Part shown: positions 8,484-51,570 of the stretch, piece by piece
Layout: every line of letters begins with the position of its first letter
Numbering within the stretch: position 1 is the first letter of the stretch
NCBI GenBank assembly: GCA_026225945.1
Contig: JAMJFZ010001657.1
Location: 1,054,001 to 1,118,000 of the forward strand
Direction: 5' to 3'
Origin: Cricetomys ansorgei
Taxonomy: Eukaryota; Chordata; Mammalia; Rodentia; Nesomyidae
Length of the DNA stretch: 64,000 nt
The notes under the pieces: generated by a model
The model's input: the letters and a program-made list of their open reading frames with translations, nothing else
The model's database searches: none
What the model was told of the DNA's origin: nothing
Program-made: the position numbers and the translations under genes

Positions 8484-9135
8484 TTCATAGATCCCAGGTC
8501 ACATTGCCCTTGGCTTTCTTAAGAAGACTGTGACTCTCCCTTAACCCCAGCTTTGTCTCTGTAGACTAATGGGGTATATTATTCTGCCTTGCTGTCTGAG
8601 GCTTGTTTTTCCTAGTGCCTGGGCAATGCTAGCCTGTATCAGGACAGACGCCATGCTTACAGCTTTTTCTGCCTTGTTGGACTTCTGAACTGGACCTGAC
8701 TTGCTTTCTGCTGTCATGTCTAGTTTCCTTCAGCAGGCCTGTTTTCTTAGCCGGTGTGCTCTACGGAATTCTGTGTTTCCAGATCATTTTGCCCTGGATG
8801 TATTACCCCTCTGCTGTCCTGGTTTCACCCCATATGATGTGTGCTTGCTTGCTCTTTAGAGGGAGGAGCTTGGCTAAGGGACCTGCAGGCTGTGAGATAA
8901 GAGCAGTAGCCACTTCTGCTGCGATGTCCTGGTCTGACCCATACACAAACAGATCCCCTTGAAGGGCCTCTGTTACAGACCTAGCACTGTGGCTGCTGGC
9001 AGCCGCTTATCCTCCTCTCCTGTACACCCAGCCCCCTCCTTCTCCATATTTGGGCCAAGTAGGCTTAATGGTCCTGTCTGACCCTTGGGCCCTGCTCCAG
9101 GAAGGTTTCTCATTCTCAGTCCTCCTCTGTGTTTT
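8484..9135. other. Unique sequence upstream of the RE1 array
   Basis: No repeat and no coding frame I can support. It is moderately pyrimidine-rich near 9000-9060. No TATA box or CpG cluster marks a promoter for the array that follows. Confidence 0.4.
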
Positions 9136-9169
9136 CTTGGAACTATGAACAGAACATTTTAGGGGCTTC

Positions 9170-9190
9170 TCCAGCACTCCATACAGAACC
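9170..9190 (+). promoter_or_regulatory. Degenerate RE1/NRSE unit
   Basis: TCCAGCACT + 2 bases + ATACAG matches 11 of the 15 fixed core positions of the RE1 (TTCAGCACC, two free bases, GGACAG). Spacing is canonical. Binding is doubtful, but the unit is in phase with the array. Confidence 0.45.
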
Positions 9191-9203
9191 CTGGCAGTGA
9201 AAT

Positions 9204-9224
9204 CTCAGCACCCTGGACAGACCC
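9204..9224 (+). promoter_or_regulatory. RE1/NRSE (REST site)
   Basis: CTCAGCACC-CT-GGACAG matches 14 of 15 fixed core positions with canonical spacing, and the flank ACCC fits the CGCC end of the 21-base consensus. It is a strong candidate REST/NRSF site. Confidence 0.75.
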
Positions 9225-9236
9225 TCCTACTATTTA

Positions 9237-9257
9237 CTCAGTACCTTGGACAGAGTC
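9237..9257 (+). promoter_or_regulatory. RE1/NRSE (REST site)
   Basis: CTCAGTACC-TT-GGACAG matches 13 of 15 fixed core positions with canonical spacing. It lies 33 bases after the previous site. Confidence 0.68.
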
Positions 9258-9303
9258 AGTGCGTGGACAGCTTCCCCGCCTGGTCAGGGCCTAATTAAAA
9301 ATA

Positions 9304-9324
9304 TTCAGCACTCAGGACAGTGGC
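9304..9324 (+). promoter_or_regulatory. RE1/NRSE (REST site)
   Basis: TTCAGCACT-CA-GGACAG matches 14 of 15 fixed core positions with canonical spacing. Confidence 0.75.
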
Positions 9325-9335
9325 ATGGGGATGGC

Positions 9336-9356
9336 TTCAGCACCAGGGACAGAAAA
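9336..9356 (+). promoter_or_regulatory. RE1/NRSE, perfect core
   Basis: TTCAGCACC-AG-GGACAG matches all 15 fixed core positions. The trailing four bases are A-rich rather than CGCC. By core match this is the best site in the array. Confidence 0.8.
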
Positions 9357-9372
9357 AGCTTTCAAAAGGGTG

Positions 9373-9393
9373 TTTGGCACCCTGGACAGCACT
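9373..9393 (+). promoter_or_regulatory. RE1/NRSE (REST site)
   Basis: TTTGGCACC-CT-GGACAG matches 13 of 15 core positions with canonical spacing, followed by CACT. Confidence 0.65.
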
Positions 9394-9436
9394 CAAAAAA
9401 AAAAAGGAAGGGGGGGGTGGGGGCTCCTGCAAAGTC

Positions 9437-9457
9437 TTCAGCATGCTGGACAGAGCA
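9437..9457 (+). promoter_or_regulatory. RE1/NRSE (REST site)
   Basis: TTCAGCATG-CT-GGACAG matches 13 of 15 core positions with canonical spacing. It is the last unit I can recognise. Confidence 0.68.
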
Positions 9458-10058
9458 AAACCAATCTTTTGTGGGTTTGTGATTTTATTTGCCCACAAAG
9501 GATTCACAATTCTCAAAGGTGACACAGATTTCCAGCTTTGACTAGACAAACCGACTTGTACAGAGATTAACCCAGGCTTGGGGTTGGCCTTCATGAGTCT
9601 GTACTGCTGTCAGCTCAGATAGCTGGGTGGTGGCTTCTATTTGGTCTGTTGCCATTTTTACTAATTTGGAAATTTAAAAACAGCTCTTCAAGTTATTACC
9701 TTAGCTCCAGCTGAGAATCACCATTGTCTCTGTGCTATGGGGCCAGATTTCAGTGTGGTCTTGCAGCCTAGATGTTTCAGGCTGAGCCAGAAAGTAAGTC
9801 ATGGCTCATCCATTCCCTGTGCAGACACCACAGGAAGATCACATACTTTAGGCCTGACTGTCAGTCCTGTCGTGATCTGGGTTAGATTGTTTCTCTTTTC
9901 TGGATCATTTGTAAAATAAAGACATTATTTACTACTCAGAGCTGTTATTATAGTTGATATCAGGACTGGCATATCCCTATGGTACCTGAATTGTCTTTTT
10001 AAATTTTAATTGTCTCCTTGCTTTCATTTGTACTCTATCCTCAAAGGTTCAGTACAGT
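9458..10058. other. Unique sequence after the RE1 array
   Basis: No repeat or gene recognised. The array signal stops by 9460. A GAAAGTAAGT donor-like motif at about 9793 has no convincing acceptor partner. Confidence 0.45.
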
Positions 10059-21475: not shown

Positions 21476-23224
21476 TGATTTAAAAAAAAACTCAATAAAA
21501 GCAGAAGTATCTTTCTGAAACGAGGTCTCACACAAAGTCGCCACACAAAACAGATACTAGTGACAGGTTTCGTGTAAAGGAGCCTATCAGTCAAAACCTA
21601 GAATGTCCACTATCAAGTTGCTTAAGCCAGAAATACAAGCCCGCGTGGCAGCATAGATTGGGAATCATGGGTTCTAGTGAACAGCTTGCTTGTCTGTCGG
21701 TCTTGGCATGTGATCACTTCTTTTTCCATGGACAGAGCACAGTGTTTGGGAGGTGCTGACCCACCCGAGTGCACAGTTGTCAGTGACAGTTCTCTGAGAT
21801 CAAGTTGTGATTGGTGAGCTCTTCCCTGCTGGGTGACAGCAGACCCAGGTGCTGGACAGAGCAGCCACACTGGTTGCTGTATCAGTGAGGTAATAATGAA
21901 TGGCAGGTCTGGAAGGCTCTGTTACTTGTGGGGTGGCAGTGTCTCCAACAGAAGTAAGTCCATGCCCTGAGTGGACCACGGCAGGCATGCCTCAGTCTGA
22001 CTTATGACCTTACAGAAGACACTACCCAGCTTCCACCATGACTGGCGGCCCTCTCTGCTCACTGAAGTGTATACTTAGTTGCTTAGCTTTGAGGGTGAAA
22101 ATGTGGTTTGAAAACTCAGCTGTATCAACCTAATGGAATTTGTCTCAGCCTTCGGTTGAACCCCTTCCAAATACTCTCGTCCCCACAAATCCTGAGAGGA
22201 AAATTCCTCAGGTTTAGCATCTATCAGATTTAGTGCGATAGAATTTCAAAATTCAATGTGCTGTCTTCCCAAGGGTTTTGCAGAAAGGCAGATTTTTGGA
22301 TGTGAGCTTGGTAGGTCTGAGGTAGGGGGAGGCCTGAGAGTTTTGTTTATGACAAGCTTCCAGAAGTTCTGGTGGCAAGATTCAAGTTCAGCAGTTTGAA
22401 GACTTCTTCACTAGAGCTTTCCTGGGGTTCTCCTCACTTAAAACATATATGACTGCAGGTTCCCTCTAGTCTGCCTCCCTTTCTTCTAAGGTATGATGAG
22501 ACTGGACTCCACACACGTACTGAGGGTGCTCTAAGCTTGGAAACGTTCTCTCTCTGCTGGCCAGGAAGGTCTTCTCAGGTCTGGTACCTCACATGCGTCT
22601 AGTCAGACATAGTCTGGGGCGAGACCTGATTCTTTATGGAGCTGTGGCATTTTAGGGAAACCATTCACCTCCCTTCACCATCCTCAGTTTCCCATCTGCC
22701 ACCTCAAGTCATGCATGTAATTCCACCCATGCCCACAAAGACGATGGATTTGAAAACGACTTGTAAACGATTCACCGACCGCCTGTAACACGTAAGGAGA
22801 GATCGCCATCTGACCGCTCAGGGTTGGACCCACCCCAAGTGACGCCTGTGACAGCGAGCGTCTGTGAAATCATTTGAGATAATCCTGGGCACATCAGGAC
22901 ACTTTAGGAGTAGCTTCAAGGCGTTCTGGGCTCTAGAAGGCTTGAATAGAACTGGGATTCTGGCCTATGGGTCCCACCGTAACTTCCCCCACCCCCACCC
23001 CAGGAATCTCCTCCCTGTGTGTGGGGACTCATGAGCCCTTGCTCACTCCGCTTACGTCCTCGTCCCTGTGGGCCCTGCCCTTTCCTGGAGCCACCCTTTG
23101 CATCTTGATCTCGGGCTCTGCATGGCTGCTGGGGGGTGCCAAGCTGATGCACCGCAAGAGGAAAGCTCCATGACGCTGCTGATGCTGGCGGTGATGCCGA
23201 TGGTGCGAGCTGAGAATGGGCTGC
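21476..23224. other. Unique sequence
   Basis: No repeat recognised. A local CpG cluster lies at about 22740-22860 (ACGATGG, AACGACTT, CACCGACCGCC, ATCGCC), flanked by a C-rich patch at 22986-23002 that could form a G-quadruplex on the minus strand. No gene is supported. Confidence 0.4.
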
Positions 23225-23275
23225 TACGTCATCGTCGTCATCGTTACCATCATCACCAGCACGGCCATCAGATCG
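23225..23275. repeat. Short (CATCRT)n patch
   Basis: ATCGTCGTCATCGTTACCAT, then CATCACCAG. The same trinucleotide texture appears in the larger array at 25060-25470. Confidence 0.6.
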
Positions 23276-23319
23276 CCGGCACCCACGCTGGGCTGGCTGT
23301 TTGCCCTAACTTGTCTCTT

Positions 23320-23400
23320 GAACTTACAACAGCCTCTTGAGGTAAGTATCATCGTGCATGCTTTACCAACGAGGAAACCGAGGCTCCACGAGAACCAGCC
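23320..23400 (-). repeat. MIR relic
   Basis: ACAACAGCCTCTTGAGGTAAG, then ACCAACGAGGAAACCGAGGC, is the reverse complement of the MIR core. A change has turned the MIR TGAGGTAGGTAC into GAG|GTAAGTAT, a perfect splice donor. Confidence 0.8.
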
Positions 23401-23407
23401 GCAGATG

Positions 23408-23800
23408 TGTTTTAGCTTTCCCTCACTGTAACAAAATACCTACGGTGAGCTGCTGCTGAAGAAAAGGGGGCGTATTTAGTTTATCACTTTGGAGACTAAC
23501 AGTCTAGACAGCATGGTGCAGGCTCTGGTGAGGTCACACGGCAGGTGGCAGGAGTAGGTGTGATCACATTGCCAAACAGGAAGTGAGAGGGCTGCGGGAG
23601 GGGCTGGCCGCAAGCTCCATCCCACTCTTCTTGTGGGAATTAACTGAGGTCCAGAGAGAAACATTCTCAGTCGACCTGAGTGCTCTTTCTAAGCCTATCC
23701 CCTTAAGGGTTCCATAGCATCTCTCCAGGTGCCACCTTAGGAGCACCTAGATTCCAACACAAAAACCTCTGGGGTGAGGGAACATCAAAGGTGGCCCAAA
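23408..23800 (-). repeat. MaLR-type LTR, diverged
   Basis: TGTTTTAGCTTTCCCTCACTG begins a reverse-oriented LTR (CTGTAACAAAATACCTACGG, AGCATGGTGCAGGCTCTGG, GTGTGATCACATTGCCAAAC). The right edge is worn and no target duplication is clear. Confidence 0.6.
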
Positions 23801-24764: not shown

Positions 24765-24905
24765 GGACACAGGGCGCTGGAGTGATGAGGCACTGTCCTT
24801 GGAATCGGAGGTCCTGGCTCTGCCAGCCCCCGCTGGCCAGCTTGCTCCTCTGCAGCCTCCAGATTCCTCATTTATAAAACAAGGGGTGGAGCACTGGGGA
24901 AGCTC
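24765..24905 (+). repeat. MIR element
   Basis: GGAGTGATGAGGCACTG, GGTCCTGGCTCTGCCAGCC and GATTCCTCATTTATAAAACA follow MIR from the tRNA-derived end into the core. Confidence 0.7.
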
Positions 24906-50620: not shown

Positions 50621-51570
50621 AATGTCAAGTGGACAGGGAACCCTGACTGAACTTGAGCCATTCTTGTATAGAATGTTTCCTGGAGTGTGTGCTCATCGCG
50701 TTGTTCCGCTGCCAATTCAGACTCTAGACAACTCCGAGGAACCAGAAAACAGGAAAAGCTATGTCTACAGCTTGTCTAGACTTTAATATCCAAATAAATG
50801 TTGAACTAGAACCAGATTCTTCGAATTGCCTTTGTGGTCCCCAGGCCAGTCTGTTAGATGATTAAGGAAGAAATAACTAGAATTTCCAAGGCAAAGAGGA
50901 AGTGACCTAACCCAGAGCAAAGGTTCGAGCACTGACAACAGTATGAGCCACAGCCCATGTGACCAGAGGAAGCTACTCTGTGGACCAGAGTAGAATTTTA
51001 GAAGCCTGGTCAGTACATATCTTCACTACAGAGATTCTACTGTGCTGGCGGAGCAGAATTTCAGGACCACGGCCAGTACCTCACGTGGCCCAGAGAGGAG
51101 CCTTGGGCTGTGGATCTCCACTGCATTCAGCCAGAGCAAGGTTTCAGAGCAGATACAAGAAAGCAGGACAAGTACCCTGCAGAAACTTTCTCAAGCCCCT
51201 TGCCATCCCTTTGTGCTGGAGTGCTTCACTGCATTGAAGGTCCCTCACAAGCATAACCACTCCTCATCCATTAAATTGCTCATAAAATGTTTCAATTCAT
51301 TGTAACGCAATAATAGTTTTATTGTTTCCGCAACGTTATGTGATGGGGGCATGTATCTTAGTCTCTGGGCCTGACAAGGAACACTGCTGCCTGGAAAGCG
51401 TGGCCATGTCTGTAGATCACGTGCTGAGGTGTTGATAAGATCAGACCATGCAGGTGGATCACCCGAATGCCAAGCCCGTTACAAAAGGCTCAGTCCAACA
51501 GCACCAGACTACCTCAATCATGTCTTTACATGGCATCCGCGAGACTACTTCCCATTCATAAGGGGGCAGT
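50621..51570. other. Unique sequence between two LTRs of one type
   Basis: No retroviral gene remnants seen between the minus-strand fragment and the plus-strand LTR. Their opposite orientations argue for separate insertions. Confidence 0.4.

Follow-up and report, generated by a model that had tools for sequence, protein, structure and literature searches.

REST, which recruits the Sin3/HDAC and CoREST/LSD1 corepressor complexes, keeps nerve-cell genes off in non-neural tissues. Tandem copies of its binding site, RE1 or NRSE, are already known as such. In exon 1 of human CELSR3, four half-sites make up two non-canonical NRSEs within one peak, and a tandem probe gave two shifted bands by EMSA, which the authors took to mean that each NRSE binds one REST, in one orientation (PMC8096226). 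The neural genes Snap25 and Celsr3 carry tandem canonical RE1 motifs no more than 1 kb from the gene and are among the genes most induced under dominant-negative REST (PMC2573930). Human MIR137, a microRNA gene with an internal promoter, is adjoined by a polymorphic VNTR of 15-bp units that contains a potential REST site, and REST has been reported to occupy this tandem repeat (PMC4393679). Synthetic elements with two or four tandem NRSE cores have been used in zebrafish transgenes (REx1, REx2, and REx4, with a 27-bp spacer in REx2): REx2 gave the most neuron-only embryos, and REx4, with four cores, gave stronger suppression in skin and notochord and suppressed brain expression too (PMC3531662).

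The locus described here lies in a 64-kb stretch of DNA, hereafter the window, to which all positions refer unless a contig is named. Within 254 bases (9204 to 9457) it contains six RE1/NRSE cores, all on the + strand, each matching 13 to 15 of the 15 fixed positions of TTCAGCACCNNGGACAG (the core match; the 21-mer match is counted over 18 fixed positions). The array resembles CELSR3 in the grouping of several RE1 half-sites but has six cores with the canonical 2-bp gap and stands far from exon 1, whereas the CELSR3 sites are exonic. It shares with Snap25 and Celsr3 the tandem arrangement of canonical RE1 motifs, although it lies ∼100 kb from exon 1. As at MIR137, potential REST sites in a tandem arrangement lie near a microRNA gene; in contrast to MIR137, its units follow a 33.5-bp lattice with canonical cores and diverged spacers, and the microRNA is 13.7 kb away. 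The REx elements were engineered beside a core promoter, unlike this natural array. In the literature searched on tandem or multiple RE1s, we recognised no account of six canonical tandem RE1s, though a prior description is possible. The features of the window that bear on the array are as follows.

9136 to 9156, + strand: RE1-like unit, very weak and doubtful (9/15 core, a value reached by 3% of 369 control places)
9170 to 9190, + strand: decayed RE1 unit (11/15 core, a value reached by 0/369 control places)
9204 to 9224, + strand: RE1 site 1, CTCAGCACCCTGGACAGACCC (14/15 core, 16/18 over the 21-mer; top score of the six)
9237 to 9257, + strand: RE1 site 2, CTCAGTACCTTGGACAGAGTC (13/15 core, 15/18)
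9265 to 9270, + strand: GGACAG, a right half-site standing alone between sites 2 and 3 (half-site score 9.6)
9304 to 9324, + strand: RE1 site 3, TTCAGCACTCAGGACAGTGGC (14/15 core, 16/18)
9336 to 9356, + strand: RE1 site 4, TTCAGCACCAGGGACAGAAAA (15/15 core, 15/18; right-hand GCC absent)
9373 to 9393, + strand: RE1 site 5, TTTGGCACCCTGGACAGCACT (13/15 core, 14/18)
9437 to 9457, + strand: RE1 site 6, TTCAGCATGCTGGACAGAGCA (13/15 core, 15/18)
23178 to 23257, + strand: mir-598 precursor (Rfam RF01059, 99.3 bits, E value of 1.8e-21)
51060 to 51080, + strand: solitary further RE1, TTCAGGACCACGGCCAGTACC (13/15 core, 15/18)

The coordinates and core counts of the six sites agree exactly with the original prediction. 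That prediction had also named a perfect core at 9336, which holds for the 15-position core and fails at the missing right-hand GCC. All six units have the canonical architecture, with left half TTCAGCACC, right half GGACAGNGCC, and a 2-bp gap between them. All six share GGACAG and the letters T2, G5, and A7. Most have a poor right-end GCC, and the left half contains two mismatches in the unit at 9373 and two in the unit at 9437. Upstream of the isolated GGACAG half-site, TCAG begins at a distance of 9 bases (10 in a canonical RE1). With an approximate REST matrix, the six sites received normalised scores of 0.913, 0.877, 0.875, 0.862, 0.842, and 0.821 and ranked first to fourth, sixth, and seventh in the window, the fifth place going to the solitary site at 51060. 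Five of the six exceed a cutoff of 0.83 (PMC2573930) and the site at 9204 alone exceeds one of 0.91 (PMC2886071), each of which belongs to another matrix. Judged by their sequence, the identity of the six units as RE1 sites is well supported.

This density is far beyond chance, as had been claimed for six RE1s on one strand. An order-3 Markov model of the window was used to generate 20 Mb of sequence, in which cores of at least 13/15 arose at a rate of 2.45e-6 per position, or ∼0.16 per strand of the window; the window itself holds seven on the + strand (six in the array and the one at 51060) and none on the − strand. When the window plus 200 kb upstream was scanned (264 kb, both strands), nine such sites were found, six of them in the array and two (13/15) before the window start, at ∼51 kb (+ strand) and ∼33 kb (− strand). 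Outside the array, no second site of at least 13/15 occurred within any 300 bases of one strand in these 264 kb. The densest 300-bp cluster over the same 264 kb contained six sites for RE1 and at most two for 200 permuted motifs (none for 159, one for 40, and two for a single motif).

RE1 is also a genuine motif of the genome as a whole, which is muroid as judged by its matches to B1 and B2 SINEs. Perfect 21-mers number 35 in 2.53 Gb, and 234 21-mers have at most one mismatch, compared to none for the reversed pattern in either case. Among the 65 matches listed of the 199 one-mismatch RE1s, positions 1, 6, and 19 to 21 account for 55 mismatches; the corresponding figure for the array is 12/17, an agreement weakened by the fact that the units were chosen by a 15-position core that does not include positions 19 to 21. 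We then took 60 of the 234 strong loci (all 35 perfect RE1s and the first 25 listed of the one-mismatch RE1s) and counted cores of at least 13/15 in 1,021 bp around each. One core was present in 54 loci, two in 6, and three in 0; thus, clusters are rare among the strong RE1s of this genome. A second core of exactly 12/15, below the cutoff and hence uncounted, was present in 5 of the 54 single-core loci. Shared 20-mers reduce the 60 loci to 52 distinct ones and the six two-core loci to three. Four loci (L013, L014, L032, and L044) have common sequence around a perfect RE1 and carry another RE1 (13/15) 176 bases upstream of it; this RE1 pair sits in repeated sequence.

RE1-like arrays do occur elsewhere in the genome. 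When near-perfect pairs were sought (CTGTCCNNNGTGCTGA twice, with starts 26 to 56 bases apart), nine matches were obtained, compared to none for the reversed pattern: the array itself (9304/9336), an identical match in contigs C740 and C3446, one each in C978, C3179, and C3860, and three in C1764. The last belong to a 20-bp minisatellite (locus L090; 24 copies by TRF, mean unit identity of 0.92) that carries nine cores of at least 13/15. A relaxed pair pattern gave 52 matches and the reversed pattern 2; of the 52, 26 were listed with letters, and 40 come from six contigs that each hold at least three matches close together. RE1-like words recur at ∼21-bp spacing in C403 (5877130 to 5877644) and ∼39 bp apart in C114 (2193907 to 2194038), in both cases with closely similar units among the matches listed, and at ∼35-bp spacing in C1902 (6137933 to 6138188). 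A loose triple pattern was discarded, as it did not discriminate genome-wide (1,044 + 716 matches versus 881 + 757 for the reversed control). The runs in C1764, C403, C114, and C1902 show that tandem expansion does produce RE1-like arrays.

The array is thus not unique by motif count, since the C1764 minisatellite equals its six cores in 300 bases, a count that also favors the decayed-minisatellite alternative (see below). The notion of a new kind of silencer array, raised in the original prediction, is therefore too strong: a minisatellite of the same genome carries nine RE1-like cores, and tandem NRSEs that each bind one REST have been published (CELSR3, PMC8096226). The array nevertheless differs from the genomic arrays that could be read in that its likeness is confined to the cores. 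The C1764 minisatellite likewise has tandem cores on a single strand (nine, 13 to 14/15), but its whole unit is conserved, without a spacer, and several of its cores lie 20 bases apart, so that neighbouring cores could hardly be bound simultaneously. Neighbouring starts in the array are 32 to 37 bases (or about double) apart, which would leave room for one REST molecule each.

We next compared the cores with the bases between them. When the six units were compared in pairs, their identity averaged 0.84 across the 15 core positions, 0.29 across the 12 bases to the left, and 0.21 across the 12 bases to the right, compared to 0.25 (95% range, 0.19 to 0.33) for random local sets. Of the consensus letters in the six cores, 82/90 are kept. 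Core identity is inflated because units were chosen for intact cores; this choice does not explain flanks at chance level. Gapped alignment of the spacers revealed no similarity beyond that of shuffled sequences (fraction at or above the observed value, 0.70), and shifts of up to 3 bases revealed none in the flanks (0.37 right and 0.44 left, versus a null of 0.43).

Starts from 9204 on are spaced by 33, 67, 32, 37, and 64 bases, and 9170 precedes 9204 by 34. The best lattice period is 33.5 bases, with a P value of 0.0035 for six starts and 0.00025 for seven, both post hoc from a scan of periods from 24 to 60. Along this lattice, the slots from 9137 to 9438 have best scores (of nine positions) of 9, 11, 14, 13, 8, 14, 15, 13, 5, and 13, and those beyond 9438 have scores of 5, 7, 6, 6, and 8, with a control mean of 6.3. 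The prediction of degraded units in phase is borne out at 9170, which falls on the lattice with a score that no control place reached; the unit at 9136 is doubtful, and no RE1 remnant was found at slots 9271 and 9405 or beyond 9438 (scores of 5 to 8). The lattice, the decayed unit at 9170, and the single orientation point to a shared origin of the units. Local repeat expansion, as originally proposed, is consistent with the lattice, which makes a tandem-repeat origin probable; for a common tandem duplication of these particular units, our confidence is moderate. The case for selection on the REST sites, judged from units within one genome, appears fairly strong.

Two other accounts of the spacing were considered and rejected. 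Helical phasing is poor, with vector lengths of 0.16 to 0.34 at 10.4 to 10.6 bp for the six sites; a length of 0.70 at 11 bp was taken as a harmonic of the 33.5-bp lattice. A coding origin is contradicted by at least one stop in each of the six frames over 9136 to 9470 and by the spacings, of which (from 9170 on) just 33 is divisible by three. A short exon within one frame over this interval would still be formally compatible with these data.

Several explanations may account for these observations, of which we lean modestly towards an ancient tandem duplication that has retained its REST sites and would act as a multisite REST silencer. The main competitor is a decayed minisatellite whose unit by chance held an RE1-like word, the array being functionless or bound by REST without consequence. 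RE1-like minisatellites are present in the genome (C1764, with nine cores, as well as C403 and C114), the core array of C1764 arose without sign of REST selection, and the 33.5-bp lattice suits a tandem-repeat origin. Neutral decay would, however, strike core and spacer alike, whereas the spacers are at chance level and 82/90 core letters are kept; were half of the letters ancestral, such retention would have a probability of 7e-17, a value uncorrected for the picking of intact cores. In addition, TRF at a score of 30 called no array over 9136 to 9457, and whole-unit similarity is absent. We regard neutral decay as unlikely, although it retains appreciable weight. Spacers without shared sequence and the uneven spacings (from 9204 on) would also fit a convergent gain of RE1s through point mutations that were selected for recruiting more REST, without duplication. 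This possibility is a distinctly doubtful one, as six of six sites in one orientation on a single lattice, together with a decayed unit in phase, argue for a shared origin.

Dispersed transposable elements are a known source of RE1-like words, as for human L2 and endogenous retroviral copies, and repeats overlap 23.6% of canonical and 25.8% of noncanonical predicted human RE1s (PMC2687797). Here, a 381-base query spanning the array matched itself alone in the 2.53-Gb genome, in a search that skips very common words and so leaves slight room for an ancient element fragment, and the region from 8800 to 9900 had no match longer than 21 bases in the window other than itself. A transposable-element source is accordingly very improbable. 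The original prediction had also offered a decoy role, in which the array would titrate REST by packing many sites into little DNA. An array of six is much too small to titrate a protein for which this genome has 234 near-perfect sites, and thousands of NRSEs are reported in mammalian genomes (PMC8096226); we give this idea almost no credence.

The array probably lies within a gene for an XK-related protein. An XK-related open frame is found at contig positions 961,098 to 962,084, on the same strand as the array and within a CpG island; residues 203 to 328 match Pfam PF09815 (1.5e-23; profile positions 1 to 87 of 337), and its best solved relative is XKR4. The array begins ∼101 kb downstream of this frame (exon 1 of the gene) and is likely to lie in intron 1 of the gene. 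Ten of the 89 open reading frames of at least 100 amino acids in the window were searched against Pfam, with no match. The mir-598 precursor lies 13.7 kb downstream of the array end. In human, miR-598 is listed with the host gene XKR6 at 8p23.1 (table in PMC3744175); because of this synteny, the XK-related gene is probably Xkr6. We regard mir-598 as a candidate co-regulated transcript. A small CpG island (23001 to 23500) overlaps mir-598 and is a possible internal promoter. In a scan of the window with 12 gap sizes, run without a null, the top altered-gap site was at 24789 (− strand, gap of 11, 22.9 bits), followed by 39897 (gap of 3, 19.9 bits), 28946 (gap of 7, 18.9 bits), and weaker ones. 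The first of these (24789 to 24818, − strand) has a perfect right half-site, GGACAGTGCC, and a weak left half 11 bases away, ∼1.5 kb past mir-598, and is a possible noncanonical RE1.

Under the retained-duplication reading, an ancestral unit of ∼33 bases would have been duplicated in tandem, giving the homotypic array of six RE1s at 9204 to 9457. Some units would then have been lost and the bases between sites would have drifted to saturation, while the positions contacted by REST were kept, above all GGACAG. In cells that express REST, several molecules would bind side by side in a single orientation, recruit Sin3/HDAC and CoREST/LSD1 complexes, and hold part of Xkr6 and mir-598 in repressed chromatin; during neuronal differentiation, falling REST levels would release the block. 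With several medium-affinity sites, the response may be steeper or more robust than with a single one. Occupancy of the array by REST is likely, and at least one of the six sites is likely to be bound, since 71.1% of nonrepeat canonical human RE1s are occupied in Jurkat cells (PMC2687797). Silencing of Xkr6 and mir-598 by the array is plausible, and cooperativity among its sites is speculative. Taken as a whole, a platform for six REST molecules in one orientation, with selected sites and replaced spacers, that sets a switch-like silencing threshold for Xkr6 and mir-598 is a tentative proposal that we hold to be somewhat less probable than its negation.

The expected size of the effect is limited by what is known of REST target genes. 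Under dominant-negative REST, the vast majority of genes with REST sites were not derepressed, and the genes most upregulated had very close sites (PMC2573930). Because most such genes do not respond and the array is ∼101 kb from the exon, a large effect of the array is disfavored. A fair alternative would be a local action, either on mir-598 or on an internal promoter, comparable to that at MIR137. In the literature searched, no link between REST and the regulation of XKR6 or miR-598 was found: XKR6 appears as a row of a GWAS table in PMC7979698 and as an entry among potential miR-29a-3p targets in PMC9481579, and neither of these entries carries such a link.

If the proposed silencing is true, it would tie the microRNA host gene XKR6/miR-598 to REST, which the searched literature does not. 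The C1764 minisatellite, whose whole units are alike, supplies a contrast within the same genome. Together with this contrast, the array would make it possible to test whether selection acts on REST site number itself and whether the dose response of REST silencing is graded or switch-like.
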